A stretch of 64,000 nt of DNA from Arthrobacter crystallopoietes (GTDB lineage: Bacteria > Actinomycetota > Actinomycetes > Actinomycetales > Micrococcaceae). Of this stretch, positions 8,388 to 58,265 are shown piece after piece (within the stretch, counting starts at the first letter, position 1; every line of letters starts with the position of its first letter). The stretch covers positions 372,001-436,000 of the forward strand of contig NZ_CP072014.1 of NCBI RefSeq assembly GCF_017603825.1, written 5' to 3'. A program made the translations under genes and the position numbers. The notes under the pieces were generated by a model. That model ran no database searches, was not told the origin of the DNA, and saw only the letters and a program-made list of their open reading frames with translations.

Positions 8388-8432
8388 ACGACGGCGGCAC
8401 CCGGCCAGGTTCTTAGCCTTGGCCGGGTGCCG
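8388..8432. terminator. Hairpin terminator built from the ACGACGGCGG dispersed repeat
   Basis: The sequence opens with the repeat core ACGACGGCGGCACCCGGC (8388-8405). CGGCACCCGGCCAGG (8395-8409) pairs with CCTTGGCCGGGTGCCG (8417-8432) with one bulged T. It sits between two convergent stops (8375 and 8451). The first 18 bases are identical to bases 945-962 inside the asparaginase gene. Confidence 0.8.
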
Positions 8433-8450
8433 CTCATCAGTTACTGAGGC

Positions 8451-9887
8451 TTAGCTCCACGGGATGGCGCCGAGCAGGATGCCCACGGCGAGCATCACCA
8501 GCGAGACTACTGCGGCACGCCAGAGAACCTTCTTGTGGTGGTCGCCCAGCTCAACGCTGGCCAGTGAAACCAGCAGCAGGATCGCCGGAACCAGCGGGCT
8601 CTGCATGTGCACCGGCTGCCCGGTGATGGACGCGCGGGCCATCTCGGCCGGGGAGATGCCGAAGTGGCTGGCAGTTTCGCTCAGCACCGGCAGCACGCCG
8701 AAGTAGAACGCGTCATTGCTCATGAAGAAGGTCATCGGGATGCTGAGCAGTCCGGTGATCACGGCCATGAACGGGCCCATCGAGTCGGGGATGATGTCGA
8801 CCAGCCAGGCAGCCATCGCGTCCACCATGCCGGTACCGTTCAGCACGCCGGTCAGCACACCGGCGGCCATGACCATGGACACCACGGCCAGCACACTCTG
8901 GGCATGGGCCACCAGCTGCGTCGCCTGGTCCTTGACCTTGGGGAAGTTCACCAGCAGGGCGATCGCGGCGCCAACCATGAAGACGAAGGCCAGCGGCACG
9001 ATGTCCAGCACAAGCACCACCATGACAGCGGTGGTCAGGGCCAGGTTGAACCAGAACAGCTTGGGGCGCAGGGTGGCTCGGTTGGGATCCAGTGCGGAAT
9101 CAACCAGTGCCAAGTCGGCGTCGATGGCCGGCTCCGGCGCGTCGAGCACGGCAACGGAACCGCCGCCGCCCTGACCGCTCGAAGAACCAACGACGGCAGT
9201 GCCTCCGTTGTTTGCGCTGCCTTTGGCGCTGCCTTTGGCGTTGCCGCCGGCGTTCCAGAACTCCGGCTTGACGTTGGCCAGGCGCTTGCGCTCGTGCAGG
9301 CCGAGGGTCCAGGCGAAGACCATGACTACCAGAATGCCGGCGATCAGGGACGGGATCATGGGGACAAAAACGTCGGTGGGCGAGACGTCCAAGGCGGCGG
9401 CGGCACGTGCGGTGGGGCCGCCCCAGGGGACGATGTTCATGGTGCCGTTGGCCAGGCCGGCCACACAGGTGAGCACTACCGGGCTCAGGCCAAGGCGCAG
9501 GTAGATCGGCAGCATCGCAGCGGTGGTGAGGATGAAGGTGGTGGAACCGTCGCCGTCCAGCGACACGACGGCGGCCAGCACGGCCGTGCCCAGGACTACC
9601 TTGGCCGGGTCGTTGCCCAGCGTGCGCAGAATGAAGCGCACCAGCGGGTCGAACAGGCCGACGTCGATCATCAATCCGAAGAAGATGATGGCGAACATCA
9701 GCAGGGCGGCCGTGGAAGTCAGGGACTTCATCGACTCCAGGACCATTTCGCCGATGCCGAGGCCGGCGCCGGCGAAGAGACCAAAGATGGTGGGGACCAG
9801 GATAAGCGCCAACACCGGCGTCAGCTTCTTGGTCATGATCAGTGCCATAAAGACCGCGATCATCGCGAATCCGAGGAATACCAGCAC
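8451..9887 (-). CDS. CitMHS-family citrate (metal-citrate):H+ symporter
   Basis: A 478-residue membrane carrier with about 11-12 helices. The N-terminal MTKKLTPVLALILVPTIFGL region and the SLDGDGSTTFILTTAAMLPIY block with NIVPWGGPTARA are typical of CitMHS proteins such as Bacillus CitM/CitH. These take up citrate complexed with Mg2+ or Ca2+. Translation starts at GTG with AAGGAG five bases upstream. A central hydrophilic loop of about 50 residues is rich in Gly/Ser/Asn and includes NNGGTAVVGSSSG; the DNA there resembles the dispersed ACGACGGCGG element. It diverges from the sensor kinase/response regulator pair that probably induces it. Confidence 0.9.
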   Translation of the reverse strand: MLVFLGFAMIAVFMALIMTKKLTPVLALILVPTIFGLFAGAGLGIGEMVLESMKSLTSTAALLMFAIIFFGLMIDVGLFDPLVRFILRTLGNDPAKVVLGTAVLAAVVSLDGDGSTTFILTTAAMLPIYLRLGLSPVVLTCVAGLANGTMNIVPWGGPTARAAAALDVSPTDVFVPMIPSLIAGILVVMVFAWTLGLHERKRLANVKPEFWNAGGNAKGSAKGSANNGGTAVVGSSSGQGGGGSVAVLDAPEPAIDADLALVDSALDPNRATLRPKLFWFNLALTTAVMVVLVLDIVPLAFVFMVGAAIALLVNFPKVKDQATQLVAHAQSVLAVVSMVMAAGVLTGVLNGTGMVDAMAAWLVDIIPDSMGPFMAVITGLLSIPMTFFMSNDAFYFGVLPVLSETASHFGISPAEMARASITGQPVHMQSPLVPAILLLVSLASVELGDHHKKVLWRAAVVSLVMLAVGILLGAIPWS

Positions 9888-9967
9888 AACAACTCCTTAA
9901 AACAGCAGGCCGGGGTAGGTGTGACCGGCCTTACAAACTGTAGGGTGGGCCGGATCACGGATGGCGC

Positions 9968-10024
9968 TTTAGTTCACTTGAGGTGCATACTGCTTATTGC
10001 GCACGTTTTGCTCATTTAGCTCAC
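9968..10024. promoter_or_regulatory. Direct repeats in the citrate divergent intergenic region
   Basis: TTTAGTTCAC (9968-9977) and TTTAGCTCAC (10015-10024) match at 9 of 10 bases, 47 bp apart, in an AT-richer patch between the citrate carrier and the sensor kinase. They are plausible response-regulator sites; no experiment supports this. Confidence 0.4.
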
Positions 10025-10083
10025 AGGCCTGCCGATCTGCCCGATCCGCAGGCGCTGCATCCACCGGATCCACAGGAGGAATG

Positions 10084-11904
10084 ATGAAATCCTCCCCCAC
10101 ACGCACCCTGCGGCCGGGCTTTTCGGCCCGCATGCTGCTGATGCAGCTGGGCGTGGTGGCGCTGGTGGTGCTGCTCTCGGCGGTTGTCTACGGCTGGCTG
10201 ACGTATGAGCGGCTCGGCGACGAAGCGGAAGACCAGGCGCTGGCTGTCGCGCGCACCGTGGCCGCATCCGGAGACGTCCGCGCGGGTGTTTCGGCGTTGG
10301 CCGACGCCGGTCCGGAAGAACTCACCGCCGAGGTGCTGGCCGACGGGGAGCTACAGCCGCTTGCCGAGGACGTACGGCTGCGGACCGGCGCGCTGTTCGT
10401 AGTGATTACCGACGACGCCGGGCTGCGGCTCTCGCACCCGGATCCGGACCTGTTGGGCCAGCGGGTCAGCACCGACCCGAGCGAAGCGCTGGGCGGGCGC
10501 GAAGTGACGGAGCAGGAGCAGGGCACACTGGGCCATTCCGCCCGGGCCAAGGTGCCGGTCTACGCGCCCGGCTCCGACAGGGTGGTCGGGGAGGTCAGCG
10601 TGGGCTTCTCCAGCAAGGACATTCTCGAAGGTCTCGGCGGCAGCATCCTGCCCATCGCCCTCACCGCAGCCGGGGCACTGGGCCTGGGTACGCTGGCTTC
10701 GCTGTTGCTGGGGCGCCGGCTGAAGCGGTTGACCCTCGGTCTGGAGCCGGAGGAGATCGCCGCCCTGACGCAGGACCAGGAAGCGGTGCTGCGCGGCGTC
10801 GACGAAGGCGTCATCGGCGTCTCCGCGGACCGCCGCATCACGGTATTCAACCGCGAGGCCAAGCGGCTGCTCGGGATGGATATCGCCGCGGAAATCGTCG
10901 GCTTGCCGCTGGACAAAGCCAGCCTCCCGCCGTCGTTCTCCGCGCTGCTGGAGGCTGCCACGCCGCAGTCCCCCACGGTGGAACAGGTGGTCGGGTCCCG
11001 GGTGCTGATCCTGACCGCCCGGGCCGTACAGCCCAGCCGCAAACCGGGCCGCCGCGGCTACCGCCCGTGGGCCGCTGCAGAAGGGGCCGCTGCGCAGGGG
11101 GCCGCCGCGCCGGAGCTCGGCTGGGTGATCATGCTGCGCGACCGGACCGAGCTGCAGTCCCTCACCCGCCAGCTCGACGCGGTCGGTGCGCTCACCACGG
11201 CCCTGCGCGCGCAGCGGCATGAATTCGCCAACCGCCTGCACACCGTCTCGGGTCTGCTGGGCATCGGCGACTATGCCGCGGCGCAGAACTACATGGGCTC
11301 GATCATGAAAACCGGGCCGCTGAACTATCCGGCCGAGCAGTCCGAGCTGCTGCGCGACCCGTACCTGCAGGCATTCATCGGCGCCAAGAGCGTGGAGGCG
11401 GCCGAACGCGGCGTCACGCTGCGGATCGGCCCGGAGACCCTGATCCGCGGCCGCATCACTGACCCGCAGGACGTGACCACGGTGATTGGCAACCTGATCG
11501 ACAATGCCGTGCGGGCGGCGGTGCACGGCAGCAACCCCGAGCGCTGGGCCGAGGTCGAACTGCTGGACGAACTGACCGAGGACGGCGGCGTGCTGCACCT
11601 GGTGGTCGCGGACTCGGGCGACGGCCTGGCGGAGGCAACCGCGTCAAACAACGACGGCGGCGGCTCGGCCTTCGAGCGCATCTTCACCGAGGGATTCTCC
11701 ACCACCGAAACCGGCGGAGACAGCCTGCAGGATGTGCACGGCCAGGGCTTCGGCCTGCCGCTGAGCAGGCAGCTGGCCCGCCGCCGCGGCGGCGATGTCT
11801 GGGTGGCCGAACCCGGCCAGCCCGGCGGCCCCGGCGCAGTCTTCTGCGCCAGACTGCCCGGAACAGTTGCCCCGAAGGAACCAGGAGAGATGCATGACGA
11901 ATGA
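10084..11904 (+). CDS. Sensor histidine kinase of the CitA/DcuS type
   Basis: A 606-residue membrane sensor. TM1 is at about 18-38. An extracytoplasmic PDC/PAS-like ligand domain (about 45-180) includes GALFVVITDDAGLRLSHPDPDLLG-type sequence typical of citrate/C4-dicarboxylate sensors. TM2 is at about 188-209, a cytoplasmic PAS domain at about 232-320, the SpoB-type H-box RAQRHEFANRLHTVSGLL has the phospho-acceptor His379, and the ATPase domain contains VIGNLIDNAVRAA. ATG at 10084 fits the AGGAGG SD better than ATG at 10081. The end overlaps the response regulator by 11 bp. NNDGGGS in the ATP-lid region may derive from the ACGACGGCGG repeat. Confidence 0.9.
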   Translation: MKSSPTRTLRPGFSARMLLMQLGVVALVVLLSAVVYGWLTYERLGDEAEDQALAVARTVAASGDVRAGVSALADAGPEELTAEVLADGELQPLAEDVRLRTGALFVVITDDAGLRLSHPDPDLLGQRVSTDPSEALGGREVTEQEQGTLGHSARAKVPVYAPGSDRVVGEVSVGFSSKDILEGLGGSILPIALTAAGALGLGTLASLLLGRRLKRLTLGLEPEEIAALTQDQEAVLRGVDEGVIGVSADRRITVFNREAKRLLGMDIAAEIVGLPLDKASLPPSFSALLEAATPQSPTVEQVVGSRVLILTARAVQPSRKPGRRGYRPWAAAEGAAAQGAAAPELGWVIMLRDRTELQSLTRQLDAVGALTTALRAQRHEFANRLHTVSGLLGIGDYAAAQNYMGSIMKTGPLNYPAEQSELLRDPYLQAFIGAKSVEAAERGVTLRIGPETLIRGRITDPQDVTTVIGNLIDNAVRAAVHGSNPERWAEVELLDELTEDGGVLHLVVADSGDGLAEATASNNDGGGSAFERIFTEGFSTTETGGDSLQDVHGQGFGLPLSRQLARRRGGDVWVAEPGQPGGPGAVFCARLPGTVAPKEPGEMHDE

Positions 11905-12676: not shown

Positions 12677-15600
12677 TCAGAGGATGTTGTTCATCATGTT
12701 CCAGCCCCAGCCGATCTTCTTCTTCGGCTCGTAGCTGCCCTTGCCGTCACCGACGTAGAGGAACAGATCTCCCCTGCGGTCCCGGGTTACCAGGTCGGCC
12801 TTGCCGTCACCGCTGAAGTCCCCCGGCCCGACGATCATGGTCATGCTGTTCCAACCCCAGCCAATCTTCTTCTTCGGCTCGTAGCTGCCCTTGCCGTCGC
12901 CGACGTAAAGGAACAGATCTCCCCTGCGGTCCCGGGTTACCAGGTCAGCCTTGCCGTCACCGCTGAAGTCCCCCGGCCCGACGATCATGGTCATGCTGTT
13001 CCAACCCCAGCCAATCTTGTGCTTCGGGGCGTACCAGCCGTTACCGTGGCCGGCGTAGAGCCACAGAACGCCTGCCTTGTCGCGGGCAACCAGGTCGTTC
13101 TTGTCGTCCCCGTTGAAGTCACCGGGTCCAACGATGCTGGTCATGATGTTCCAGCCCCACCCGATCTGCTTCCGCGGTGCGAACCAGCCGGTTCCTTTGC
13201 CGGCGTAATGCCAGAGCTTTCCGGCCTTGTCACGGGCAACCAGGTCGGCTTTGCCGTCACCGTCGGTATCGCCGGTGCTGATCAGGCTGGTCATGCTGTT
13301 CCAACCCCTTCCGACCTGCTTCCGCGGTTCGTAGCCGCCGTTGTTCTTGCCCACGTAGAGCCAGAGCTTGCCGGAGCGGTCCGTGGTGATCAGATCGGCC
13401 TTGCCGTCAGAGGTGAAATCATTGCTCGACTGCGTCTGAGCGGGCTCCTCCTCAACCGGCGTCTCCGAGTCGGCCGGCGGCTCCTCCGTATCAACCGGCG
13501 GCTCCTCCGTATCGACCGGCGGTTCCTCGCCCGGCGTCTCTTCACCCGGCGTCTCCACGTTCGCCGCAGTGGTCCAGGTGCCGATCGCGCTGGTGTTGCC
13601 GGCTTCATCGATCGCTACGGCCCGCAGCGTCTGTCCTGCGGAGAGCTGCACCGGTGCCGCGTAGAGGGTGCTGGCCTTGCTCGGCTCAGTTCCATCGAGC
13701 GTGTAGAAGATGGCCGCATTCCCATCCGCGGTCAAGGTAATCGCGGTGCCCGCAGCCATCTCGCCCTCCGGGGTACCGGTGAGCGCCGGTGCGGTCTTGT
13801 CCAGCGTGAAGGTCTCCGTGACCACCTCGGACGGAATGCCGAAGTTGAACGCGATGAACTTCAGTGTGGTGACCCCCTCATTAGTGATGGCGATCGGCTC
13901 CTCGTACAAGGTGCTGTCCTCGGTCGGCTCCGTACCGTCAGTGGTGAAGAAGATCTGCGCGGTGTCCGGAGTCGCCGTCAGCGTTACCAACTGGTCGGCG
14001 GCGAAGAGTCCTCCGGCGGTCGCGGCGGTTGCCGTCGGCGCCTCCGGCGGAGTTGCGTTCGTCATCTTGCCCTGCACCACGAACTCATCGGTCTCGCCCA
14101 GTACCTCCGGGGTCAATATCTCACCGCCGTCGGCCTCGGTCACCTGCTCGACCTTGAAGAAGTTCGTATCGTAGGGGCTGCCGACGACGGCGTGCGGCGT
14201 GTTGCCGTCGCCGAGGTAGCCTGCCGGAGCGCCCTCGTCCCACCGCAGGAACGGCCCGATCTTGGCCTCCAGCAGATGGGAGAAGTCGCCCGTGCCGTTC
14301 AGCGCGCCGAGGTCCTCGGTGTAGTTGATGTTGCCATCGACGTCCGCCGTCAGCTCCAGCACGCCGTAGGGATGTGTGAACTTGTAGGTTGCACCCGGCT
14401 CGAAGACGCCATCACCGCGGACCCGTATCCGGCCGAAGGCCACCTGGTCCCCGTCACGTACCATGTCGGCGCCGAAGGCAGCTTCCGAGGCCAGGGTCAG
14501 CTGGACCTCTTCGCCATCGACATCGAGCACTGACTCGGAAGCGAACCAGAACGCCTCTCCGGGGAAGTTATCCGGGAAAGAGGTTGGTGCCAGCGGGTTC
14601 GGCCGTTCTTCGACGACGGGGCACAGCGGGTCCTCCAGGCACAGGTCCAGCTGGACCGGTTCCTGGCCTTCCCAGCCGTTGTCCCGCAGCCACTCCGGGA
14701 AGCCATGCTCTTCGCTCGTCGGACCAACTTCCTGCAGGTTGTGGATCTTGAACGGGAAGGACCGGATTTCACCGGCTGTTCCGGTAGCTGGATCTACGGC
14801 GACGGCCCGAATAGTGGTGGAAGTTCCGACCTGCATCGGTTCGGTGTACTCCCAGGTGTTGCCCTGCGGCTCCCCCGCCTCAGAGAACGACGGCATGGAG
14901 CCGTCCGTGGTGTAGTAAATCTCCGGAGCAACAGCGGGATCGTTGGTATTCCCGCTCAGTGTCACCAGTTGCGGCCCTGCCAGCGGGCCGGCAGCAGCGT
15001 CCGGAGTTGCGTCCAGCCACGGGCGTGTGGCGTCCAGGTCGTACTCTTCGGTGTAGACCTCCGTGGTGTCCCCGGTTGCCGGGTCGATGGATATGTACTT
15101 CAGCGCTGTGACCCCGGGGGTACCCAGTTCGACGGCTACTTCCGAGACGGCTGCCCCGGCTTCCGGCACGTATTCGGTACCGTTGACGGTCCCGTCCGCG
15201 TTGACGGTTGGATCCGAACCATCCGTGGTGTAAATGATCTTCCCTTCCGGGAAGGATGAGTGAATCTTCACCGTTTGAGCGGAGCTGTAGCGGCCGCCAG
15301 GTTTGTCCACGCCGGCTTCCACTGTCGCGATCTTGCCTTGGACGGCGAACAGATTCGTCTCTGCCGTCTGGACGTCACCCCCTGCCGGCCCTGAAACCCG
15401 GAAGAAGTTCGTATCGTGAGGGCTGCCCACAACCTCGTGTTCCACGTTCGGGTCGCCAATGAAGCCCTCCGGCGCTTCGGGACCAGCCGCTGGGTCCCAG
15501 CGCAGGAACGGGCCGATCCGGCCATCGGATGGCTCTTCCCAGGAACATGGTTGCTGCATGCAGCCGATGTCCTCCGTGAAGCGGATCCGGCCGCGGTCAT

Positions 15601-16213
15601 CGGCGGTCAGGACGTCCACACCGTAGGGGTGCGTGAAGGTGTACTGCTGGCCTGGTTCGCCGTCTTCGAGCCGGATGCGCAGCCGGGCGAACCCGTTTTG
15701 CTGGCCGGCAGCCACGTCGCCGGCTCCGCCGAAGGCTGCTTCCTGGGCCATGATCAGCCGGGCCTCGGCCCCGTCAGGCATGGTCAGGGACGCTTCACCC
15801 GACCACCAGAAGGATTCTTCCGGGAAGTTCTCCGGAATGGACAGCGGCGCCGATGGATCATAGTCAACACCGATGACCGGGCAGTCCTGGGCAGTGACGC
15901 ACAGTTCCAGCCGTATCGGCGCCAACCCCTTGGCCGCGTCTCCGCTGTCGCCGTACCAGTACGGATAGCCGTTGTTCGGATTGATCGGGCCCACCCCGGT
16001 CGGGCCTTTCGGCAAAGCCGCTGGCAGCATGCCTGCGAGCGCGGACTGCGAGAGCCCGGCGCCGCCTGCGGGAAGCGAAGCCGCCGAAGCCGGCGGCAGA
16101 ACGGACAGGCCAGAGAGCAGGACGGCGCCTGCCGCCGCCATCCCCACCGCCCGCCGTCGTTGTTGCTTACGGCCGCTTGGCGGCCTCAGCTTGATTTCAG
16201 GATCGGATGTCAT
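12677..16213 (-). CDS. Large secreted protein with duplicated unknown modules, chitobiase-C-like domains and FG-GAP repeats
   Basis: About 1178 residues, exported: a twin-arginine-like basic stretch, a hydrophobic core and a probable cleavage after ASA near residue 44. Two homologous modules of unknown function follow (about 84-297 and 504-717), sharing HPYGV, IGPFLRWD, GDxNxxHxVVGSPxDTNFF and VQGK. Each is followed by two Ig-like domains with YYTTDG/FTTDGTEP motifs (chitobiase C-terminal type). Then come a Pro/Glu linker (884-930) and five FG-GAP/VCBS units with DxDGDGKADLV calcium-binding loops (931-1178). ATG at 16213 is preferred over GTG at 16231 because GAGGGGG lies before it. The role is unknown; surface binding or degradation of a polymer is possible. 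No catalytic motif is apparent. Confidence 0.8.
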   Translation of the reverse strand: MTSDPEIKLRPPSGRKQQRRRAVGMAAAGAVLLSGLSVLPPASAASLPAGGAGLSQSALAGMLPAALPKGPTGVGPINPNNGYPYWYGDSGDAAKGLAPIRLELCVTAQDCPVIGVDYDPSAPLSIPENFPEESFWWSGEASLTMPDGAEARLIMAQEAAFGGAGDVAAGQQNGFARLRIRLEDGEPGQQYTFTHPYGVDVLTADDRGRIRFTEDIGCMQQPCSWEEPSDGRIGPFLRWDPAAGPEAPEGFIGDPNVEHEVVGSPHDTNFFRVSGPAGGDVQTAETNLFAVQGKIATVEAGVDKPGGRYSSAQTVKIHSSFPEGKIIYTTDGSDPTVNADGTVNGTEYVPEAGAAVSEVAVELGTPGVTALKYISIDPATGDTTEVYTEEYDLDATRPWLDATPDAAAGPLAGPQLVTLSGNTNDPAVAPEIYYTTDGSMPSFSEAGEPQGNTWEYTEPMQVGTSTTIRAVAVDPATGTAGEIRSFPFKIHNLQEVGPTSEEHGFPEWLRDNGWEGQEPVQLDLCLEDPLCPVVEERPNPLAPTSFPDNFPGEAFWFASESVLDVDGEEVQLTLASEAAFGADMVRDGDQVAFGRIRVRGDGVFEPGATYKFTHPYGVLELTADVDGNINYTEDLGALNGTGDFSHLLEAKIGPFLRWDEGAPAGYLGDGNTPHAVVGSPYDTNFFKVEQVTEADGGEILTPEVLGETDEFVVQGKMTNATPPEAPTATAATAGGLFAADQLVTLTATPDTAQIFFTTDGTEPTEDSTLYEEPIAITNEGVTTLKFIAFNFGIPSEVVTETFTLDKTAPALTGTPEGEMAAGTAITLTADGNAAIFYTLDGTEPSKASTLYAAPVQLSAGQTLRAVAIDEAGNTSAIGTWTTAANVETPGEETPGEEPPVDTEEPPVDTEEPPADSETPVEEEPAQTQSSNDFTSDGKADLITTDRSGKLWLYVGKNNGGYEPRKQVGRGWNSMTSLISTGDTDGDGKADLVARDKAGKLWHYAGKGTGWFAPRKQIGWGWNIMTSIVGPGDFNGDDKNDLVARDKAGVLWLYAGHGNGWYAPKHKIGWGWNSMTMIVGPGDFSGDGKADLVTRDRRGDLFLYVGDGKGSYEPKKKIGWGWNSMTMIVGPGDFSGDGKADLVTRDRRGDLFLYVGDGKGSYEPKKKIGWGWNMMNNIL
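12691..13440 (-). repeat. Five tandem 150-bp units encoding FG-GAP repeats
   Basis: The ten bases TCATG(C/A)TGTT recur at 12841, 12991, 13141 and 13291 (TCATCATGTT at 12691), an exact 150-bp period encoding 50 residues per unit. The two units nearest the stop codon are almost identical in DNA sequence, which suggests recent duplication or gene conversion. Confidence 0.9.
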
Positions 16214-22148: not shown

Positions 22149-22832
22149 TTAGCGCGGCTCGCGGGCCGTTGTGTAGGAAGGCTCGCGCAGGGATCGGGTC
22201 CAACGGTAGGTGCCGGCGCCGGGCAGTGGATGCAGTAGCGGATCGAACCGCCGGTCCGTGTCCTGCTGGGTTGCATCAAGCGACAAGGACATAGTGGCGA
22301 ACCGGGTCCATGGCCCGCGGAGTGCGGAATGGTAAAGCCCCAGCGTCCAGACGCGGTCCCCGAGTGCCCGCCGGAAGGCCTCCGGTTTCGCGGGGAGCCT
22401 GAACGCGGAGTCCAGAGTACGGGCCGCCAGCAGCACCGGCCCGCGGCTGCTCTGATACGGCATCAAGGTGGTGAATGCTGGCTCCGACGCGAATCTGTGC
22501 GGCGTCAGGATGAAACGGCTGGCTCCGGACATCCCCGTGGATGCGAGCAGTACATCGAAGGGTCCTGGGTCTGCCAGTACCCGCAGGGCCAGCCCGATGA
22601 TGTCCGGCAGCGGTTCGGGCAGGCCGATCGATCGCGACAGCCGTGCCTGGACTTGGACGGTACCGGGAGTATCGAGCCACGATATCCCGCTTCGCCGTCC
22701 GGGCGGAAGCCTGTCGGCCGACCCGGTGAGGCTGACGCCTTCCGGATGGATCGGGCGCTCGGGGCGGAGGGCTTTGATTCCTCGGAACAGGAGCGCAAAG
22801 CCGCGTCCCGCCGTCGTAGCTATCTGTTCCAA
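22149..22832 (-). CDS. Conserved hypothetical protein, possibly catalase-fold
   Basis: A 227-residue soluble protein I cannot assign firmly. It starts at TTG with AAGGAG seven bases upstream. The order HPEGVSLTGSA, GISWLDTPGTVQVQARLSRSIGLPEPLPDIIGLALRV, DVLLASTG and RFILTPHRFASEPAF loosely follows the beta-barrel core of catalase-related heme proteins (conserved His, then Arg-Ser and Gly-Leu-Pro, then LLAST). That is a weak analogy, and no proximal heme Tyr motif was recognised. It lies 21 bp upstream of the Gfo/Idh gene's 5' end on the same strand, so the two may be co-transcribed. Confidence 0.6.
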   Translation of the reverse strand: MEQIATTAGRGFALLFRGIKALRPERPIHPEGVSLTGSADRLPPGRRSGISWLDTPGTVQVQARLSRSIGLPEPLPDIIGLALRVLADPGPFDVLLASTGMSGASRFILTPHRFASEPAFTTLMPYQSSRGPVLLAARTLDSAFRLPAKPEAFRRALGDRVWTLGLYHSALRGPWTRFATMSLSLDATQQDTDRRFDPLLHPLPGAGTYRWTRSLREPSYTTAREPR

Positions 22833-23696: not shown

Positions 23697-24485
23697 TCAG
23701 CGCCCACTGGCGTGCTCGCCCAGTTGTTGGGTGATCTTGTGCGCCTCCTCAAGCAGAAGCTTCCCGAGGAATTCCTGCCGTTCCGGGCGGAACCGCTGCT
23801 CGATGCCGGTGAGGGACAGAGCCCATGCCGGGTTGCCGTGGCGGTCGAAAACGGCGGCCCCCATCCCCCAACTGCCCTCAAGGATGAGTCCGGGATTCAC
23901 CGTGTAGCCGTTGCGACGGGTCGCTTCCAAGTTCGCCCGGATCCGTTCTGCGGTATGGGCCGGTCCAAAACGCGCGGCGCGCACACCGCCGTCGTCAAGC
24001 AACCGGTCCACCTCCTCTTCCGGGAGGAAGGCCATGATGGCTAGTCCGGCGGAAGCAACTCCCAGTGGAAAGCGGACACCTTCATGCAAAACGAATGAGC
24101 GCACCGGAAAGCTGCCTTCGACCCGGAGCAGACACACCGTTTCGTCACCGCGCCTGATGGAAAGGAATGCGCTCTCGCCGGTTTCATCCGCCAACCGCTG
24201 CAGGCTCGGCCGCGCCAGGTCCTCAATGGCGTACCGGTTGGAGGCGACAGCTCCGAGGACATAGATCTCCGGGCCCAAATGCCAGGTGCCCGTCTCGGCA
24301 TGATGGTCCAGCAGCCCCTCGGCCGCCAGCGAGTTCAGTAGCCGGTAGACCGTGGGCCGCGTCAGCCCCGATGCCTCAACGATAGCCGGAAGCGCCGCAC
24401 CTCCTTCAGGGGAGCGTCCAACGATGCGCAACAACTGAGCCACACGCCCGACCACTTGCGCCCCTTGCACAGTTTTCTCCGCCAT
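23697..24485 (-). CDS. IclR-family transcriptional regulator
   Basis: 262 residues. The N-terminal winged helix (about 10-70) contains AIVEASGLTRPTVYRLLNSLAAEGLL. The C-terminal GAF-like effector domain has LADETGESAFLSIRRGDETVCL, the FPLGVASAGLAIMAFLP block and a final GAAVFDRHGNPAWALSLTG. ATG at 24485 has AAGGGAG five bases before it. It is divergent from CoA-transferase and thiolase genes, and the space between holds three TGGACA/TGTCCA half-site pairs. By analogy with PcaR/CatR-type IclR proteins it probably responds to a pathway acid such as 3-oxoadipate or acetoacetate. Confidence 0.88.
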   Translation of the reverse strand: MAEKTVQGAQVVGRVAQLLRIVGRSPEGGAALPAIVEASGLTRPTVYRLLNSLAAEGLLDHHAETGTWHLGPEIYVLGAVASNRYAIEDLARPSLQRLADETGESAFLSIRRGDETVCLLRVEGSFPVRSFVLHEGVRFPLGVASAGLAIMAFLPEEEVDRLLDDGGVRAARFGPAHTAERIRANLEATRRNGYTVNPGLILEGSWGMGAAVFDRHGNPAWALSLTGIEQRFRPERQEFLGKLLLEEAHKITQQLGEHASGR

Positions 24486-25414: not shown

Positions 25415-26131
25415 ATGGCTTGGACACGAGACGAGATGGCCGCTATCGCTGCCACCGAACTTAACGACGGCGACTACGTCAACCTCGGCATCGGCATCCC
25501 CACCCTGGTGGCGAACAACCTGCCCGAGGGCGTGCGGGTGGTGCTGCAAAGCGAGAACGGCCTGCTCGGCATGGGTCCGTTCCCCTACGAGGGTGAGGAA
25601 GACGCGGACCTGATCAACGCCGGCAAGCAAACCGTTACCGTGCTGCCCGGCGGGTCAATCTTCGATTCGGCCACGTCCTTCGGCATGATCCGCGGCGGGC
25701 ATGTGAAGGTCGCCATCCTCGGCGCCATGGAGGTCTCCGGAGCCGGCGACCTGGCCAACTGGACCATTCCGGGCAAGATGGTCAAGGGTATGGGCGGTGC
25801 CATGGACCTGGTGGCCGGCACACCTCGCGTGGTCGTACTGACCGACCACGTATCCAAGGACGGCACACCCAAGATCGTCAGGGAATGCTCGCTGCCGCTC
25901 ACCGGCGTCCGCGTAGTCAACCGCATCATCACTGATCTGGCCGTCTTCGACATCACTAACGACGGCGGCGACACCGCAAACAACGACGGCGGCAACCTGT
26001 CACTGGTACTGACGCAACTGGCGCCCGGAGTCACCCTCGAAGAGGTCCGGGACAAGACCGAGGCCCCCTTCACGGTCGCTCCTGGGCTCGAGGCGGAGCT
26101 AGCCGCAGCCTTGGAAGGAGCACAGCGATGA
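25415..26131 (+). CDS. scoB: 3-oxoacid CoA-transferase subunit B (ScoB/PcaJ type)
   Basis: A 238-residue beta subunit. It has [15 protein letters not shown] and [13 protein letters not shown]; the Glu of SENG is the residue that forms the enzyme-CoA thioester in the family. [29 protein letters not shown] follows. AAGGAG lies before ATG. Near residues 183-196 the chain reads [13 protein letters not shown], encoded by two copies of AACGACGGCGG (25963-25995); other family members run more directly from DLAVFD to the LAPG segment, so this looks like an in-frame expansion by the dispersed repeat. The end overlaps the thiolase start (ATGA). Confidence 0.9.
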
Positions 26132-27403: not shown

Positions 27404-29176
27404 TTACTTGGAGACCTTGCCCATCCGGGCGGCGACGGGTGTGGTGCAAAGCGGTTTCGTTAGGAACCAGGCTGCCGCGATGGCCACCAGGGAGAGTACG
27501 AAGATGATCAGCCCCCACCAGTCCACGATGTCCCGCGAGGTGTACATATGGTTCAGGTTGCGCAGGGCCCCGGTAAAGAAGACCAGGAACACGTGCACGA
27601 GGGTGAAGGCTACGAAGTAGATCATCACCGGGAAATGGATCGCCCGGGCCCACTCCACCGGGTACGCCTGGTTGAGCCCGGCAGCCTTCTCCGGCCACCA
27701 GGTCGAGATCCGGATACCGGAGATGATCGCCAGCGGCGCGGCAATGAACACGGTGATGAAGTACGTCATGACCTGCAGCGCGTTGTAATGCACCCACCCG
27801 TTCTCTGTCGGCCAGTCCAGGGAAACGTATTGGATGCCGGCCGAGAGCATATTCGGGAAAATGTCCCAGCTGGTGGGCACGATGCGCATCCACTGCCCGG
27901 TGGCCAACAGCAGGACGATGAACACCAGCCCGTTGAGCACCCAAAGCACGTCCAGGCTCTGGTGCAGCCACTGGGACAGGGAAACCTTCTTCGGGATGTT
28001 GCCCTTCGGAGAGAAGAACGAGTCCTGCTTCGCCGTCCAGTAACCCGGAGGCTTGCGCTCGGTACGGACCTGCAGACCCGTCCGGATAATGAGCACGATG
28101 AAGAACATGTTCAAGAAGTGCTGCCAGCCCAGCCATGCCGGCAACCCCACCGGCGCGCCATCCGGCTGGGACGCATGGCCGTCGTAGGCCGCGATGAACT
28201 CCTGCACCGGCCCCATGCTCCGCAGCCAGCGGGCAGCGAGCACCGCGACCAGAGCTAGCACCAGTACGACGGCGGTCACGACCACCGGCTTAAGCCATGC
28301 CGGGCGTTCGCCCGCATTGGTGGCTCCACCGGACGGGGCGGGCCGGTTCGAGCTTGTAGGCGGAGCCGATCCGGAACCGCTCTTGGCCGCCCCTCCTGCG
28401 GTCGGTGTGGAGGGCGGGGTCGGTGTCGGTGTCCCCATTCGCGCGCGGGTTGGCGCGGCAGAATCACGTTGGGCAGGAGCGGGGCTTGCGGCTGCGGTGG
28501 CTTCCTGCCCGTGGATAGCGCCCATACGCTGGCGGGTGCCGCCAGCGGTGCCGGGTTTGGTGTCAGCGGATCCGGCCGGTGCCGGGGCTGCTCCCATCCG
28601 GGTCTTGCCCGATGGTGTTGCTGCAGGTTCCTGCCCGGAAGTCGACGGCGTCATCCCCATGCGCTGCTTCCGCACAGGAGTAGCAGGCGGCGCATCGGCG
28701 GGTGCCGCACCCGGAGGTGCTGCAGTGGTGGAAGCGGCGGGCTGAGCCCCCATGCGCTGCTTGCGCACCGGGGCCACTGGCTGGGGTGTCTTCGGCGGCT
28801 CCGGCGCCTCGGCAGCCGGTCCGGCGTCGTCCGTACCCTGTTCCACATGCGGCGAGGGCCGATAGCCGCCCATTCGCTGTCTCTTCGCCGGGGCGGCCGC
28901 TGCTGCCTGAGTCCCCTGGAACGGCGCGGCAGTCGCATTCTGTGCAGGGGACGGGGCCGAGGCCTGACTCGCGGCCTGTTTCGGCGGCTGCAAGACTGGC
29001 GCCTCCGGTGCCGCCGGACTCTCAGTCGAGGCCGGCAGCGTGCCAGCGACGTCGACGTCGACGTCGTCAGCGGCTGCAGGCTGCTGATCCTGCCGAGTTG
29101 CCTGTGTCAGCGGCCGGTATCCGGCCATACGCTGACGTCGCGGGGCTGGGTCAGCCGCGCTGTTCTCATTGGTCAT
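27404..29176 (-). CDS. Membrane cytochrome b with a long disordered RMG-repeat N-terminus, downstream of etfBA
   Basis: About 590 residues. Residues 1-290 are Ala/Pro-rich, apparently disordered, with seven R-x-R-M-(A/G) or K-x-R-M-G motifs (Met 17, 102, 142, 173, 194, 218, 247); an eighth RMG is near the C-terminus (584-586). Residues 297-572 hold about six helices of the cytochrome b561 / formate-dehydrogenase gamma type, with histidines 353, 405, 463, 514 and 528 as possible heme ligands. ATG at 29176 has the SD GAGAGGC. It lies 55 bp after etfA on the same strand. I infer that it passes electrons from ETF, perhaps through another protein, to the quinone pool; this is not established. Confidence 0.78.
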
Positions 29177-34520: not shown

Positions 34521-34568
34521 CTACGACGGCGGGCACCTCGCCGGCCGCAGAAGCGGTTAAGTGCACGA

Positions 34569-42320: not shown

Positions 42321-42350
42321 TGCCTTGCCAAGGCAGGCACCGCCGTCGTT
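42321..42350 (-). repeat. Intergenic copy of the ACGACGGCGG palindromic element
   Basis: The minus strand reads AACGACGGCGG, then a TGCCTGCCTTGGCA palindrome segment. 26 of 30 bases match the copy inside the alpha-mannosidase gene at 51208-51237. It sits between the LysE exporter and the CoA ligase, where the TGCCTTGCCAAGGCA centre can form a hairpin. Confidence 0.75.
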
Positions 42351-44045: not shown

Positions 44046-44102
44046 CCGCCGGGCGACCGGGCGAACGGGAGACGCGCACTCCGCCGTCGTCGTTAGAGGT
44101 CT

Positions 44103-45838: not shown

Positions 45839-45913
45839 AACAACGACGACGGCGGCATCCGCCCGGTCCCGGCAGTCCCCTTGGGGCTGGGGCCGGGTTC
45901 GGATGCCGCCGTT
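45839..45913. terminator. Large cruciform-like palindrome with dispersed-repeat core, between convergent genes
   Basis: AACAACGACGACGGCGGC opens the element at 45839. The 13-bp outer stem ACGGCGGCATCCG (45849-45861) pairs with CGGATGCCGCCGT (45900-45912). Inside, CCCGG/CCGGG and CCCC-TT-GGGG arms can form further stems. It lies between the epimerase stop (45799) and the BCCT stop (45957). Confidence 0.85.
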
Positions 45914-48370: not shown

Positions 48371-51300
48371 CGGCGGAACCGGAGGGTAGCCAGCTGGAAG
48401 GGCCTGAGCCGCAACCGGGCTCCGGAGTCCACGTCCTGGAGCCAGCCCGCCGGAACCTCGCGCTCCAGCAAGTCAGTGGCGGCCACGCCGTCGTAATCAA
48501 AGTCGGGCTGCAGCACTGCTTCGGCCCGGGCGCCGTGCGCCTCGTACAAGCGGATCACCACATCACCGCTGCGGTCTTCGGCCAGCTTGACCGCTTCGAT
48601 GACCACTGCGGGATTATCGACGGCGAACAGCGGCTTGAGCCCGACGCTTGCGTCATTGGCTTCGGCGCCCGCACCGGTGCCGCGCGCCGATCCGTTGACT
48701 ATGCGTAGCGGCAGGTTCAGCCGGTACCCTTCGGCCGCGGCTTCGGGTATCCCGGCGTTGGGCCGCAGCGAGAACCGGAAGGGATGCCGTCCCTGGTCCG
48801 CCCCCGGATCCGGGAACAGCGGCGCACGCAGCAGCGATGCCCGGACGGACGTGTACGTGCCGGCACCGTCAGCGAGCGCGGCGCGGCCGATGTCGTAACC
48901 GTACGTGGCGTCATTAGCCAGGGCCACGCCATAGCCGGGCTCGGCCACGTGGATCCAGCGGTGCGCCACCGTTTCGAAGCGGGAGGCGTCCCAGGACGTG
49001 TTGCTGTGGGTAGGCCGGTAGATATGGCCGAACTGGATTTCCGAGGCGGCGCGGTCCGCGTGCACGTCCAGCGGGAACATCAGCTTGAGCAGTTTCTGCT
49101 GCTCGTGCCAGTCCACCTCAATTTCGAGTTCGACGGCGGTTCCGTCCTGGCTTAGCCGGATCTGCTCGGTCAGCACGGAGTCCCCGAACGAATGGCGGAT
49201 CCGTAGCCCGGGCACCTCGTTTGTCTCGAGCGGTTCCACGAAGTCGGCTTTGCGCAGCTCTGCCACGGTCGATTTGTAGTGCTCGTCGAGGTCCCAAGCA
49301 TCCCACTGGTTGGGCATGTCGCGGAAGACCTGGAACAGGTTGCCCGCCAGCCCGGCCGGTACCAGCTCCCGCCCGGCGCCGCGGTCCAGCAGCGAGGTGA
49401 GCAGTCCGGCGTCGTCGATTGTCAGTTCCAGCGCTTCACTGCGCAGGGTCCATCCGCCCTCGCCGTGTTCCAGCCGGACCGGCACAGCCCCGGCTGGCGT
49501 GCCGCCGCCCAGCCCGGGCACCCCGGCTATTGGGTAGGGACCGGCGTTGACGCTGAGCCGGCCGCTGTCCGGATTGACGATGGCGGCGAGGGCGTCCGCG
49601 ATCAGCCCTTCCAGCGTTTCGGCCACCCACGCGTAGTTGCGCTCGGCCTCCTGATGGACCCAGGCGATCGATGAGCCGGGCAGGATGTCGTGGAACTGCT
49701 GCAACAGCACCGTCTGCCAGGCACGCTCCAGCTCGTCGTAGGGATACGGCGCACCTTTGCGGATGGCCGCCGTGGTGGCCCAGAGCTCGGCCTCGCGCAG
49801 CAGATGCTCGCTGCGCCGATTGCCCCGCTTGGTCCGCGCCTGCGAGGTATAGGTGCCGCGGTGGAACTCCAGGTACAGCTCGCCGGAGAAGACCGGCGGC
49901 TCCGGATACTCTGCCTCGGCCGTGCGGAAGAACGTTTCCGGACAGGAGAGCTGCACCCGCGGTGAACCCTCGAGATCTGCCGTCCGAAAGGCCGCCGCGA
50001 GCATTTCGCGCGTGGGCCCGCCGCCGCCGTCGCCCCAGCCGAAAGGCAACAGCGAGGTGTTGGCGGGGCCCTTTTCGCGGTAATTCCGCTGGGCATGGGC
50101 CAACTGTGCCGCGGAGATGTCCGAGCTGTACGTGTCCGCAGGCGGGAAGTGCGTGAAAATCCGGCTGCCGTCGATCCCCTCCCACTGGAAGGTGTGGTGC
50201 GGGAAGCGGTTGGTGTCGTTCCAGGAGATCTTCTGTGTCAGGAACCAGCGGGAACCGGCGGCCTTGACGATCTGCGGTAGCGCACCGGAGTAGCCGAAGG
50301 AATCCGGCAGCCACACCTCCAGTGGTTCCACCCCGAAGTTCTCCAGAAAGAAGCGCTTGCCGGCCACGAACTGCCGGGCCAAGGCCTCCCCGCCGGCCAT
50401 GTTGGTGTCCGGTTCCACCCACATGCCGCCGGCCGGCACAAAGCGGCCGCCGCGCACGGCTACGGCCACCCGCTCGAACAGTTCGGGATAGTGCTCCTTC
50501 AGCCACGCGTACTGCTGGGCCGACGAGGCGGTGAACACGAAATCCGGGTGCTCCTCGATCAGGTCCAGCACGTTGGAAAACGTCCTGGCCACTTTGCGCA
50601 CGGTCTCACGCACCGGCCAGAGCCAGGCGCTGTCGATGTGGGCATGGCCGACGGCATAAATGCGGTGCGCGCTGGCATACGCCGGCGCGCTGAGCACTTC
50701 GGCCAGGCAGGCCCTCACCGCCGAAGCCGTCGAGGCGAGGTCCTGCGGGTCGGCGGCATTGAGCGCCCGTTCCAGTGCCCGCAGGATTTCATGTCGGCGA
50801 GGCAGGTCCTCGGGCAGCTCTCGCATCAGCCCGTCCAGCGTCCGGAAGTCCTGCAGCAGTTCCCACACCTGCACATCCAGCAGCGCCAGGTCCGCCCGGG
50901 CCAGCACGTTCTGCGGCTCGCTCCCGGCGGTGGCCTTGTCCCCCAGCGGTGTGGGTGCGAAGAGGAATCCATCCGCGACGTTTGGGTTCGACGCCGCCTC
51001 CACATAAAACTCAATCCTGCCGTCAGGTCCAGGATCCAGCGGGACATGCATGTTCAGCGGTTCAACGCCCTTGATGATGCTGCCATCCGGGCGGTAGGCC
51101 ATTCCTTCGGCCTGGAAGCCGGGCAGCAGGGAAGTGCAACCGAGGTCGATCACCGCCTCCAGCCGCGCGGCGCCATCGATCTCCCCCGCGGGCAGCCCAA
51201 CGGAGCCTTCCCTGCCAAGGCGGGCACCGCCGTCGTACTTTCCGGCCCAGTCCGCGGGAACCTGGGCGGAGAACCGGAACCAGGTGGTCCCCCACGGCAG

Positions 51301-52452: not shown

Positions 52453-53385
52453 TCACTTCTCCTTCAGCAGACGGATATACACAACGGAGAACACCGCTCC
52501 GATCAGGATCATCACGACGGCGATTGCCGTACCGTAGCCGATGTTGCTGTACCGGAAGGCTTCCTCATATGCCATGACCGGCAGCGTGGCACTGCGCCGG
52601 GACGGCCCGCCCGCGGTCATCACGTAGATCAAAGTGAAGACCGCCAGAGTCTGCAAGGTGATCAGCATCAGGTTCGTGGCGATGCTGCGCCGGATCATCG
52701 GCAGCGTGATGTACCAGAGCCGCAGCGCCCCGCCGGCGCCGTCGATCATCGCCGACTCGCTGATTTCCTGCGGCACATCGTTCAGCGCCGCCTGGTAGAC
52801 CATCATGGAGAACGCGGTTCCCCGCCAGATGTTGGCCAGGATAATTGCAAGCATGGGATGTTCGAAGAGCCAGTCCACCGGGGCGACCCCGACGGTTGCC
52901 GTCAACTGGTTCAGGGTGCCTTCCCGGAAGAAGAACGCGTAAGCCACAAAGGCCGCCACGATTTCCGGCAGCACCCATGCCGCCACCACACAGACACTGA
53001 CGACGGCGGCAACCGCCTTGGTTGCCTTGTTCACCAGCAGCGCGGTTCCTAGTCCAAGAAGGTTCTGCCCCACGATGGCCGAAGCGAACACAAACAGCAC
53101 TGTCAGCCAGAGGGACTGCGGAAAGTTCGGGTCGCGGAACAGGTCCGCGTAGTTTTCGGGCCCGATGAACTGCGGGTCCTTTGCATTTTTGCCCGTCAGC
53201 GCGGCGTTGGTGAAGGACCCGTAGACGGAGAAGATGATCGGCCCTGCCAGGAAAATCCCTAGCAGCGCGATCGCCGGGGCCAGAGGAAGTAGCTTCAACC
53301 ACAGCGAACCAGTCCTGCCGCTGTTCCCGTGTCCCGGTCCGGTGCCAGGCCGGCGCACGGGCCGCGTGCTGGTCCCGGCGGTCAT
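52453..53385 (-). CDS. Sugar ABC transporter permease, MalF-like
   Basis: A 310-residue permease with six helices. The EAA loop reads EISESAMIDGAGGALRLWYITLPMIRRSI; AFSMMVYQAALNDVP precedes it. A hydrophobic helix near residue 35 (LLPLAPAIALLGIFLAGPIIFSVYG) begins the membrane part. It starts 4 bp after the binding-protein gene. No ATPase gene accompanies the set, so a shared MsiK-type ATPase encoded elsewhere is expected, as in other actinobacteria. Confidence 0.9.
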   Translation of the reverse strand: MTAGTSTRPVRRPGTGPGHGNSGRTGSLWLKLLPLAPAIALLGIFLAGPIIFSVYGSFTNAALTGKNAKDPQFIGPENYADLFRDPNFPQSLWLTVLFVFASAIVGQNLLGLGTALLVNKATKAVAAVVSVCVVAAWVLPEIVAAFVAYAFFFREGTLNQLTATVGVAPVDWLFEHPMLAIILANIWRGTAFSMMVYQAALNDVPQEISESAMIDGAGGALRLWYITLPMIRRSIATNLMLITLQTLAVFTLIYVMTAGGPSRRSATLPVMAYEEAFRYSNIGYGTAIAVVMILIGAVFSVVYIRLLKEK

Positions 53386-56700: not shown

Positions 56701-56754
56701 CCGGTGGCGCCGGCCGCTCCCGCTGAAGCGGCTTCCGGCGCCTGAACCCAGCAG

Positions 56755-56798
56755 ACGTCCGACGGCGGCACTCACCAAGTGCCGCCGTCGGACGTTTT
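56755..56798 (+). terminator. Terminator after putP with dispersed-repeat core
   Basis: A perfect 18-bp stem: 56755-56772 (ACGTCCGACGGCGGCACT) with 56778-56795, a CACCA loop, and TTTT at 56795-56798. The stem contains the CGACGGCGGCAC repeat core. Confidence 0.92.
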
Positions 56799-56882
56799 CC
56801 CCGCCAGCGACAACCAGTGATTTTATTTTCCCAATCACTTGGGCGGATACTGGTACTCCGCTCAACCATCCGAGGAACACCC

Positions 56883-58166
56883 ATGTCCGTGCCGCGCGCC
56901 CTGCGCCTCTTTGCACACCACAACTACCGCGTGCTGATCGCAGCCCTGGCGATCTCCATTTTCGGCACCGGCATGTGGGCCGTCGCCATGGTGTACCAGG
57001 TCATCCACCTGGGCGGCGGTCCGGCCGAACTGTCCATCGTGGCCACCTGCTCGAGCGTCGGCTTGCTGGCTTTTGTGCTGCTGGGCGGCATCGCGGCCGA
57101 CCGGCTGCCGCGGCGCCGGCTCATCCTGGCCGTGGAGGCAGTCAACCTGGCCGCCATCGGCGCAGTCAGCTTTTTGGCGCTCACGGACCGGCTGCAGCTG
57201 TGGCATCTGGCGGCCGCCGCCTTCCTGCTGGGCGTGGGTGCTGCGTTCTTCTTCCCGGCCTACTCGGCGATCCTGCCCCGGATCCTGCCCGCGGATGACT
57301 TGCTGGCAGCCAACGGCATGGAAGGAACTATCCGGCCGCTGCTGCAGCAGGCCGCCGGTCCTGCCGCCGCAGGCATGGTGGTGGCGGCGTTCTCGCCTGC
57401 CGCAGCCATCGGCTGGATCAGCTTCTGCCATCTCGCAGCCTTGGTGATCCTGTCTTTCCTCGGCGCCGAACCTGTCCCGGAAGGCGGCCCGGCCACGCCG
57501 GTCAAGAGTTCCGTCCTGGCGGACCTGAAGGAAGGCGTCGCCTACACGGTCAAGACGCCCTGGCTGCTGTGGACACTGCTGTGGGCAGTGGTCGCGACGC
57601 TCATTTTCATCGGCCCAATCGAGGTGTTGCTGCCCTTCGCCGTGGCCGCACAGCTTGGCGGCGATGCCAGCACCTTCGGCTTCCTGCTGGGCATCTTCGG
57701 AGCAGGCGGGGCGGTCGGCGCCATGGTGACGGCCTCGCTGCCGCTCCCCCGCCGCTACCTCAGCGTGATGATCATGATGTGGGGTGCCGGCATCATGCCG
57801 CTGGCAATCCTCGGCTTCACCGACAGCTTCTGGGTCATGGCCGGCGCGTTGTTCGTCATGGGTGCTACCGGCAGCGCGGGCATGGTGATCTGGGGAACGC
57901 TGCTCCAGCGCCGCGTCCCGTCCCACCTCCTCGGCCGCATCTCCAGCCTCGACTTCTTCGTCTCGCTGGCGCTGATGCCGGTGTCCATGGCATTGGCCGG
58001 CCCACTGGGCGAGATCATTCCGATCTGGCTGATCTTCCTGCTGGTCGGGCTGGCGTCGCCGGTGCTGTCCGTGATCGCGATTGCCTGCGGCCGGATGCTG
58101 CGGAACGAAATCGAGCACCCGCTGGAACGGACGCTGGCCCCGGCAGACGAACCGGCCGAAGCGTAG
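56883..58166 (+). CDS. MFS exporter of the enterobactin/EntS-like (MFS_3) type
   Basis: A 427-residue permease with about 11-12 helices. It opens LRLFAHHNYRVLIAALAISIFGTGMWAVAMVYQVI, followed by LGGIAADRLPRRRLIL (MFS loop motif) and the RILPADDLLAANGMEGTIRPLLQQAAGPAAAGMVV block typical of this group. ATG at 56883 has GAGGAAC upstream. A siderophore or drug export role is possible; the substrate is unknown. Confidence 0.87.
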   Translation: MSVPRALRLFAHHNYRVLIAALAISIFGTGMWAVAMVYQVIHLGGGPAELSIVATCSSVGLLAFVLLGGIAADRLPRRRLILAVEAVNLAAIGAVSFLALTDRLQLWHLAAAAFLLGVGAAFFFPAYSAILPRILPADDLLAANGMEGTIRPLLQQAAGPAAAGMVVAAFSPAAAIGWISFCHLAALVILSFLGAEPVPEGGPATPVKSSVLADLKEGVAYTVKTPWLLWTLLWAVVATLIFIGPIEVLLPFAVAAQLGGDASTFGFLLGIFGAGGAVGAMVTASLPLPRRYLSVMIMMWGAGIMPLAILGFTDSFWVMAGALFVMGATGSAGMVIWGTLLQRRVPSHLLGRISSLDFFVSLALMPVSMALAGPLGEIIPIWLIFLLVGLASPVLSVIAIACGRMLRNEIEHPLERTLAPADEPAEA

Positions 58167-58193
58167 CCAGCCCACCCTCTATCCATAACGTCG

Positions 58194-58265
58194 ACGGCGG
58201 CCCTCGCCTGGATGCTGGCGAAGCCGGGGCTTCGCCCGCCAAAGGCGGGAGCCGCCGTTGTTTTT
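58194..58265. terminator. Bidirectional terminator with dispersed-repeat arms
   Basis: ACGGCGGC (58194-58201) pairs with GCCGCCGT (58251-58258), continued by CCTCGCC/GGCGGGA with one mismatch and one wobble. An inner stem GGCGAAGC/GCTTCGCC (58217-58236) completes it, and GTTTTTG follows. It lies between convergent stops at 58166 and 58284. Confidence 0.85.

Follow-up and report, generated by a model that had tools for sequence, protein, structure and literature searches.

What is the short core ACGACGGCGG that recurs in one intergenic hairpin after another along a 64-kb stretch of the Arthrobacter crystallopoietes chromosome (the window, positions 372,001 to 436,000 of NZ_CP072014.1)? A first-pass annotation had read these hairpins as a mobile element of the repetitive extragenic palindromic (REP) or miniature inverted-repeat transposable element (MITE) type, used by the genome as a bidirectional terminator. 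We find that the core belongs to a DNA word that is kept throughout the chromosome, is scarce in the foreign DNA examined, shows no replication polarity and forms inverted pairs just after genes. DNA uptake sequences (DUS) and uptake signal sequences (USS) behave in genomes in this way. Our favoured explanation, offered tentatively, is an uptake-signal-like word that has been partly reused in terminators.

The exact core occurs 21 times in the window, as compared with 0.44 expected from dinucleotide shuffles (none of 100 shuffles reached 21), and 86 copies are found when up to one mismatch is allowed (14.6 expected). Thirteen of the 21 exact copies lie within called genes, in line with the first-pass annotation, which had noticed the core inside coding regions. 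The source genome is a single contig of 4.38 Mb (4,382 kb). For the chromosome-wide count, the same letters read backwards served as the control: there are 867 copies of the core (459 + 408) and 107 (58 + 49) of the reversed letters. A genome-wide count, proposed earlier as a check, thus places the core well above its control. Its density is higher in the window (0.33 per kb) than in the genome on average (0.20 per kb).

We next consider coding DNA. Our sample of this genome comprises 464 kb, namely the window and 20 stretches of 20 kb spread evenly over the genome (L001-L020), of which 383 kb are coding. The gene caller was self-built and called 80% of the sample coding. Its starts are often too short, which leaves some 5′ coding DNA labelled as intergenic, and intergenic counts are therefore less safe than coding counts. 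Coding DNA contains 67 cores, where a synonymous-codon shuffle predicts 15.0. Under a strict null, a shuffle that preserves the protein, the codon usage and the dinucleotides at codon junctions, the count is 66 against 13.2 expected (14.3 on repeat), and CGACGGCG occurs 338 times against 129. The core is the top 10-mer by z-score in coding DNA and, with 23 copies, also the commonest intergenic 10-mer of the sample. Its excess extends to all six reading frames: the two common-codon frames have 26 copies (9.0 expected) and 21 (3.3 expected), and the rarer-codon frames have 8 versus 0.25 (+0), 6 versus 0.35 (-0), 3 versus 0.05 (+2) and 2 versus 0.2 (-2). This excess in every frame under the strict null places the selection, or drive, at the level of DNA and not of protein.

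Altering any one of positions 1-5, 7 and 8 in the 10-mer abolishes the excess (ratios of 0 to 1.25, with the exception of G at position 3, at 1.5). Positions 0, 6 and 9 are tolerant, with ratios of 1.7 to 3.5 after single changes. From this tolerance profile, the real word is CGACGNCG, which occurs 866 times in coding DNA against 397 expected, a surplus of roughly 1.1-1.2 sites per kb of coding DNA on both strands. Counts vary slightly with the shuffles, the training sets, the flank that is needed and the handling of the palindrome CGACGTCG, giving 866, 835 or 815 for CGACGNCG, and 67 or 66 for the core with 13.2-16.2 expected. The flanks carry signal only at -6 to -1 (A, A, A, T, T, A) and at +8 (G), and there is one weak column at +18. 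Among 64 intergenic half-sites, the left flank is similar, not identical: A has a frequency of 0.91 at -1, 0.58 at -2 and 0.02 at -3, followed by A or C at -4 and a purine at -5. In full, the word reads CGACGNCG, preferably preceded by A and followed by G or A, and its left flank leans towards A/T (before CGACGNCGG, roughly AAATTA or AACAA). In a second genus (genome G047), the tolerance pattern is the same, with changes at positions 0, 6 and 9 keeping a 2.05-2.17-fold excess and all others 0-1.32. The pattern is weaker in a third genus (G044), where these positions give 1.66-2.40, but positions 1 and 8 give 1.55 and 1.36.

Coding copies of CGACGNCG are also conserved beyond what their codons would predict. 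In the closest sister genome (G120, 92% identity), 81 of the window's 96 coding sites are intact, as compared with 57.2 expected from codon-specific conservation. The corresponding figures are 39 of 44 (25.4 expected) in the sister G123, 32 of 44 (24.1) in the sister G105 and 10 of 27 (4.9) in the more distant G062 (77% identity). Control words with permuted composition are conserved about as expected in G120 (867 of 1465 versus 864.6), G123 (426 of 724 versus 420.9) and G062 (120 of 555 versus 115.6). The exact 10-mer in coding DNA gives small numbers, being intact in 8 of 9 cases in G120, 1 of 2 in G123, 2 of 2 in G105 and 1 of 1 in G062.

The excess is flat along genes (1.93-2.54 across deciles). 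With the origin set from the sign change in GC skew at about 1.0 Mb, the word has no replication-strand bias (374 leading versus 394 lagging copies), which rules out a replication-polar motif. Nor was clustering observed: the counts exceed expected ones in all 21 sampled stretches, least in those with atypical genes. When genes are grouped by codon usage, the most typical fifth has a 2.65-fold excess and the most atypical fifth one of 1.65-fold. In twelve Arthrobacter phages totalling 589 kb there are 14 cores (reversed control 8), and in two plasmids totalling 586 kb (FB24 plasmid 1 and pACHL01) there are 10 (control 8).

Two side observations concern particular replicons and regions. Three sampled stretches (L012, L016 and L017; contig positions 2409001-2429000, 3285001-3305000 and 3504001-3524000) have atypical codons and little excess (13 versus 8.7, 16 versus 13.1 and 9 versus 7.9). 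They are likely acquired DNA, and GC skew places the terminus near the last two. Arthrobacter sp. StoSoilB13 has a 1.0-Mb "plasmid" (NZ_AP024649) with 149 cores (control 15), or 0.15 per kb, a density that is chromosome-like and unlike that of the other two plasmids. This replicon may be a chromid or part of the chromosome.

Inverted pairs of the form CGACGGCGG-N3-33-CCGCCGTCG number 37 in the genome, and the reversed pattern has none. Outside the window there are 36 pairs, 31 intergenic and 5 coding; together with the window's pair at 56759, 32 of 37 are intergenic. These 32 lie a median of 20 nt from the nearest upstream stop codon, 27 of them within 60 nt, and their tails are moderately T-rich (at least 4 T in 8 nt for 16 of 32). 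Because the pairs sit just 3′ of stops, where terminators sit, it is probable that they terminate transcription. In the 464-kb sample, the gaps of 15-400 nt that contain the exact core are 4 of the 50 convergent, 6 of the 160 tandem and 2 of the 57 divergent ones. Of the CGACGNCG sites, 91 are intergenic; a stop lies within 100 nt of 45 of them and a start within 100 nt of 29. The probable terminator role would be a side use of the word that serves few gaps, and the proposal of a general bidirectional terminator fails on the count for convergent gaps and on the many window copies in genes.

The window contains eight intergenic places with the word, as follows (window coordinates).

8388 to 8432, plus strand: core at 8388-8397 with a hairpin, in a gap between convergent genes; the core's ACGAC end pairs only imperfectly in the predicted fold; kept in G120, the sole comparable relative.
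31128 to 31201, no strand assigned: variant pair ACGACGCCGG / ACGACGTCGG (one-mismatch variants at 31136 and 31177) in a long hairpin flanked by two minus-strand genes; kept in G120, the sole comparable relative.
34523 to 34601, plus strand: two direct cores (34523-34532 and 34565-34574) in a convergent gap, the second core starting a hairpin; no synteny at this gap in the four relatives examined.
42321 to 42350, minus strand: core at 42340-42349 adjoining a hairpin, in a gap that is tandem by the gene calls (by the listing of open reading frames (ORFs), the core would be coding if the downstream gene started at 42315); the hairpin in G120 is a different one that ends in the same CCGCCGTCGTT; absent from G123 and G105.
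44081 to 44098, minus strand: single core in a convergent gap; unchanged in G120 and altered at one base in G123 and in G105, CGACGNCG retained in all three.
45839 to 45913, no strand assigned: long full hairpin with the core at 45846-45855, in a convergent gap; in G123 with one core base changed, absent from G120, half remnant in G105.
56755 to 56798, no strand assigned: perfect inverted pair CCGACGGCGG...CCGCCGTCGG (one-mismatch variants at 56759 and 56782) 3′ of a plus-strand gene, counted among the 37 genomic pairs; G120, G123 and G105 have the same pair, G062 does not.
58191 to 58265, no strand assigned: variant pair TCGACGGCGG / ACAACGGCGG (one-mismatch variants at 58191 and 58252), a hairpin with a T-rich tail in a convergent gap; kept with changes in G120, G123 and G105.

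The other 15 exact copies fall outside these places, 13 in called genes and 2 (16151 and 22808) in ORFs or upstream regions.

945 to 954, plus strand: core in a called gene.
1350 to 1359, minus strand: core in a called gene.
4397 to 4406, minus strand: core in a called gene.
9565 to 9574, plus strand: core in a called gene.
10927 to 10936, minus strand: core in a called gene.
11651 to 11660, plus strand: core in a called gene.
16151 to 16160, minus strand: core just 5′ of the called start of the gene at 12677-16141, or within its longer ORF.
22808 to 22817, minus strand: core in an ORF rejected by the gene caller.
23986 to 23995, minus strand: core in a called gene.
25959 to 25992, plus strand: two direct cores in a called gene, starts 24 nt apart.
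28266 to 28275, plus strand: core in a called gene.
33672 to 33681, plus strand: core in a called gene (LysR-type regulator).
51227 to 51236, minus strand: core in a called gene (GH38 alpha-mannosidase).
53000 to 53009, plus strand: core in a called gene.

The nearest named locus found is in Arthrobacter sp. VKM Ac-2550, where the window's mannosidase has 91% protein identity and the DNA is 90.5% identical over 16.6 kb. ARAGORN calls a tRNA without a readable anticodon at 32943-33024, inside the ORF at 32063-33931; this call is probably a false positive.

As the first-pass annotation stated, all eight intergenic places hold the core or a near variant, with exact copies at 8388, 34523, 34565, 42340 (minus strand), 44081 (minus strand) and 45846, and the cores resemble one another too closely for independent terminators and form one family. 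Other parts of its description stand in modified form. Five of the eight places (8388, 34523, 44083, 45839 and 58194) do lie between convergent stops, whereas three (31128, 42321 and 56755) are tandem. The description of the copies as terminator-like stems suits the paired ones, but the copy at 44083 has no inverted partner beside it. Nor does the core always belong to the stem, since in the predicted folds its ACGAC end is outside the main stem at 34565 and 42340, in addition to the imperfect pairing at 8388.

In the sister genomes, the element is kept at 5 of 7 comparable places in G120, at 4 of 5 in G123 (two with a core base changed) and at 3 of 5 in G105 (one with a base changed). Near 56755, G062 has a different hairpin with AACGACGGCGGGG. 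A search for empty sites, as expected for a mobile element, gave a mixed picture: the site at 45839 is empty in G120 and that at 42321 lacks the element in G123 and G105, but G105 retains half of the first and G120 has another hairpin at the second. The place-by-place changes look like turnover in place rather than transposition. The hairpin at 45839 looks deleted from G120, as opposed to not yet inserted, because of the half remnant in G105.

The word is not confined to this species. Across 120 Micrococcaceae genomes of 32 genera, the ratio of the core to its control is at least 5 in 69 genomes, 2-5 in 31 and below 2 in 20. Inverted pairs track this ratio (Spearman 0.73), and genomes with ratios below 2 carry 0-2 pairs. 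Raw ratios depend on G+C content, and some genomes were therefore rechecked on samples of 100-464 kb under the codon-aware null. The resulting excess ratios for CGACGNCG, with those for the core in brackets, are 2.15 (4.62) in the window's own genome, 1.90 (3.65) in G120, 1.59 (3.79) in G047, 1.52 (2.90) in G062, 1.37 (2.58) in G044, 1.27 (2.35) in G006, 1.09 (1.22) in G022 and 0.93 (0.71) in G023. G006 has a single intergenic core in the 200 kb read, yet 70 pairs in its genome. Raw ratios are high in several other families among 198 genomes of the wider order, and the word may therefore be older than the family. The sole genome of these checked, G148, has a ratio of 1.37 (2.09). The signal is clearest in the window's own lineage.

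Other words surfaced in the same samples. The palindromic CGGATCCG (54 versus 19.4) and CCGGATCC (95 versus 41) are in excess in the own coding sample, and CGGATCCG is in G120 as well (17 versus 5.2); they are possibly a second word or a methylation-related site. CTTGAGC/GCTCAAG is enriched in the own coding DNA under the simple codon shuffle (104 versus 45) and is not among the top words listed once junction dinucleotides are kept. Under that simple shuffle, the coding DNA of the G023 sample (L031-L040) has 20 copies of CTTGAGCA against 4.2 expected. In the 200-kb G044 sample (L228-L237), overlapping intergenic 10-mers such as GTTTCCCGCA and TCCCGCACGA have 13-14 copies each, possibly an array of clustered regularly interspaced short palindromic repeats (CRISPR) or another repeat array. 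In the G148 sample (L212-L221), CGAGGTAGGC has 17 intergenic copies in 17 kb of gaps.

If the word is an uptake signal, DNA that bears it would be preferred by a surface receptor for DNA that is linked to the competence machinery (ComEA-like, ComEC and pilus-type T2SSE/T2SSF proteins). Recombination of the preferentially imported DNA would then spread and maintain the word on the chromosome, and inverted pairs arising by chance 3′ of genes would be retained as transcription terminators. The genome encodes ComEC with an adjoining ComEA-like HHH/SLBB protein, as well as three T2SSE ATPases above the cut-off, two of which have Pfam-detected T2SSF neighbors. Micrococcus luteus belongs to the same family as the window organism, Micrococcaceae. 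In this actinobacterium, transformation uses an Flp/Tad pilus, comEA and comEC are present, and trpE16 is described as a naturally transformable strain (PMC6370729). A broader proposal, which we regard as slightly more doubtful, is that CGACGNCG with an AAATTA- or AACAA-like flank is a genus-spanning uptake word of the Micrococcaceae, read by a Tad/Flp-type or ComEA-linked receptor, and that some lineages lost the preference and later the word.

Several results weigh against an uptake word. No feature that we found separates an uptake receptor from another chromosome-marking protein as the reader of the word. All 120 family genomes have ComEC, whether or not they carry the word, so that competence genes do not track the word and ComEC cannot explain the word-free lineages. 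The 200-kb samples of G022 and G023 lack an excess of the word, and no replacement word stood out in them. In G044 and G148, CGACGNCG is only 1.37-fold in excess, with other words about as strong (in G148, equally strong and unrelated ones). Control words are also conserved above expectation in G105 (442 of 724 versus 402.2), which makes it the weakest of the conservation comparisons. Of the aligned intergenic places with the exact core, G120 keeps the core unchanged in all six, G123 in none of three and G105 in none of two. The phages are not independent of one another (W06 and W09, which share their match, belong to one species, and W03-W05 to one genus), and the phage and plasmid counts were set against the A. 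crystallopoietes chromosome, not against the chromosomes of their own hosts. Finally, a text search of a paper on M. luteus transformation (PMC4322843) gave no match to "uptake sequence" or "uptake signal".

The main rival is a word for chromosome maintenance or recombination, that is, a site bound by a nucleoid or segregation protein, or a recombination signal of the Chi type, kept for the repair or organization of the core chromosome. We consider this a real possibility, although a less probable one. A localized word of about 15 bp that is conserved in coding DNA and rare in the phages and the two plasmids fits any chromosome-marking protein equally well, and the lower excess in codon-atypical genes fits as well. 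However, Chi and the FtsK orienting polar sequences (KOPS) are usually biased between leading and lagging strands, which this word is not, and it is in excess in every sampled stretch without clustering. Moreover, pairing into terminators is a documented habit of uptake words (PMC1852404).

A context-dependent bias in mutation or repair, by which CGACGNCG would arise often and decay slowly without having a function, is improbable. Such a bias would yield enrichment in all frames and apparent conservation together. It does not readily account for a signal that includes specific bases 4-6 positions away, nor for phages and plasmids that are poor in the word. Furthermore, the word is absent from the 200-kb samples of two family genera at similar G+C content (0.633 in G022 and 0.661 in G023, compared with 0.637 here).

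It is more improbable still that the word is a terminator motif and nothing else, its shared stem base being a strong terminator solution selected behind genes. The position of the exact pairs behind stop codons and the T-rich tails of half of the intergenic ones are what this explanation predicts. The coding signal contradicts it: most window copies are single and inside called genes, the coding excess is flat along genes, and few convergent gaps contain the exact core.

We find hardly any room for a REP/MITE-like palindrome mobilized by a REP-associated tyrosine transposase (RAYT). Dispersed palindromes with a common core would suit such an element, and for one of the 496 pairs of elements the alignment reaches 84% over 51 nt. 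This is the best alignment, however; 66 of the pairs gave any alignment at all, and 15 gave one of at least 40 nt with the shared half-sites included, so that the suggested alignment of copies does not reveal full-length homology. The 32 intergenic palindromes share the outer half-site, and in the 31 pairs with inner segments of equal length, these segments have a mean identity of 0.45, with one pair reaching at least 0.8. The search for a cognate transposase, also suggested earlier, gave no match in the genome to the Y1_Tnp profile (PF01797, RAYT) at E <= 0.001. In addition, single half-sites occur inside genes in all coding frames, most comparable positions are kept in the closest sister, and the lost copy left a half remnant. 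We therefore reject the mobile-element reading. Ordinary GC-rich codon composition (Asp-Gly-Gly and Ala-Val-Val runs) is equally hard to credit: 47 of the 67 coding copies do fall in the two common-codon frames, but the excess survives shuffles that preserve codons and junctions in common and rare frames alike, which contradicts a composition-only reading.

If the word is an uptake sequence, it would, as far as the literature searched shows, be the first in any group other than Neisseriaceae and Pasteurellaceae, and Gram-positive phyla would have their first example; in open-licence literature, judged by titles and the beginnings of abstracts, we found no report of such a word in Actinobacteria. 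The trait would then have arisen more than once, receptor finding would gain a new system, and preference for self DNA would be testable in soil Actinobacteria. If the word instead serves chromosome upkeep, it is still a conserved motif with about one excess site per kb, for which no report was found in the literature searched. In either case, GC-rich hairpins with a common core need not be mobile elements.

Among known systems, REP elements with their RAYTs resemble the Arthrobacter word in being dispersed palindromes in gaps. They differ from it in that here no Y1_Tnp match is found, copies have little full-length homology, and most window copies are single and in genes. Chi and KOPS are, like it, chromosome-wide short words kept in coding DNA, whereas the Arthrobacter word is longer, paired in palindromes and free of replication-strand bias. 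The USS of Pasteurellaceae has a core with an A/T-leaning flank, as does the Arthrobacter word. Both also occur as pairs, those of the USS in terminators (PMC1852404) and those of the Arthrobacter word in probable ones. By contrast, the Pasteurellaceae word is reported to be biased to gene termini (PMC2346458), and the Arthrobacter word is flat along genes. PMC1852404 gives uptake words as about 9-11 nt long, generally with at least 1,000 copies per genome, and apparently co-opted into terminators, and PMC3630211 (2013) describes transformation in Neisseria and Pasteurellaceae as unique in requiring such words. The DUS of Neisseriaceae differs in sequence and phylum, and the Arthrobacter word is known from genome sequence alone. 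In other respects the two are alike: the DUS is likewise short, present in many copies in genes and gaps, and found as inverted pairs at terminators (PMC3630211 and PMC1852404), and the Arthrobacter word is scarce in the foreign DNA examined.

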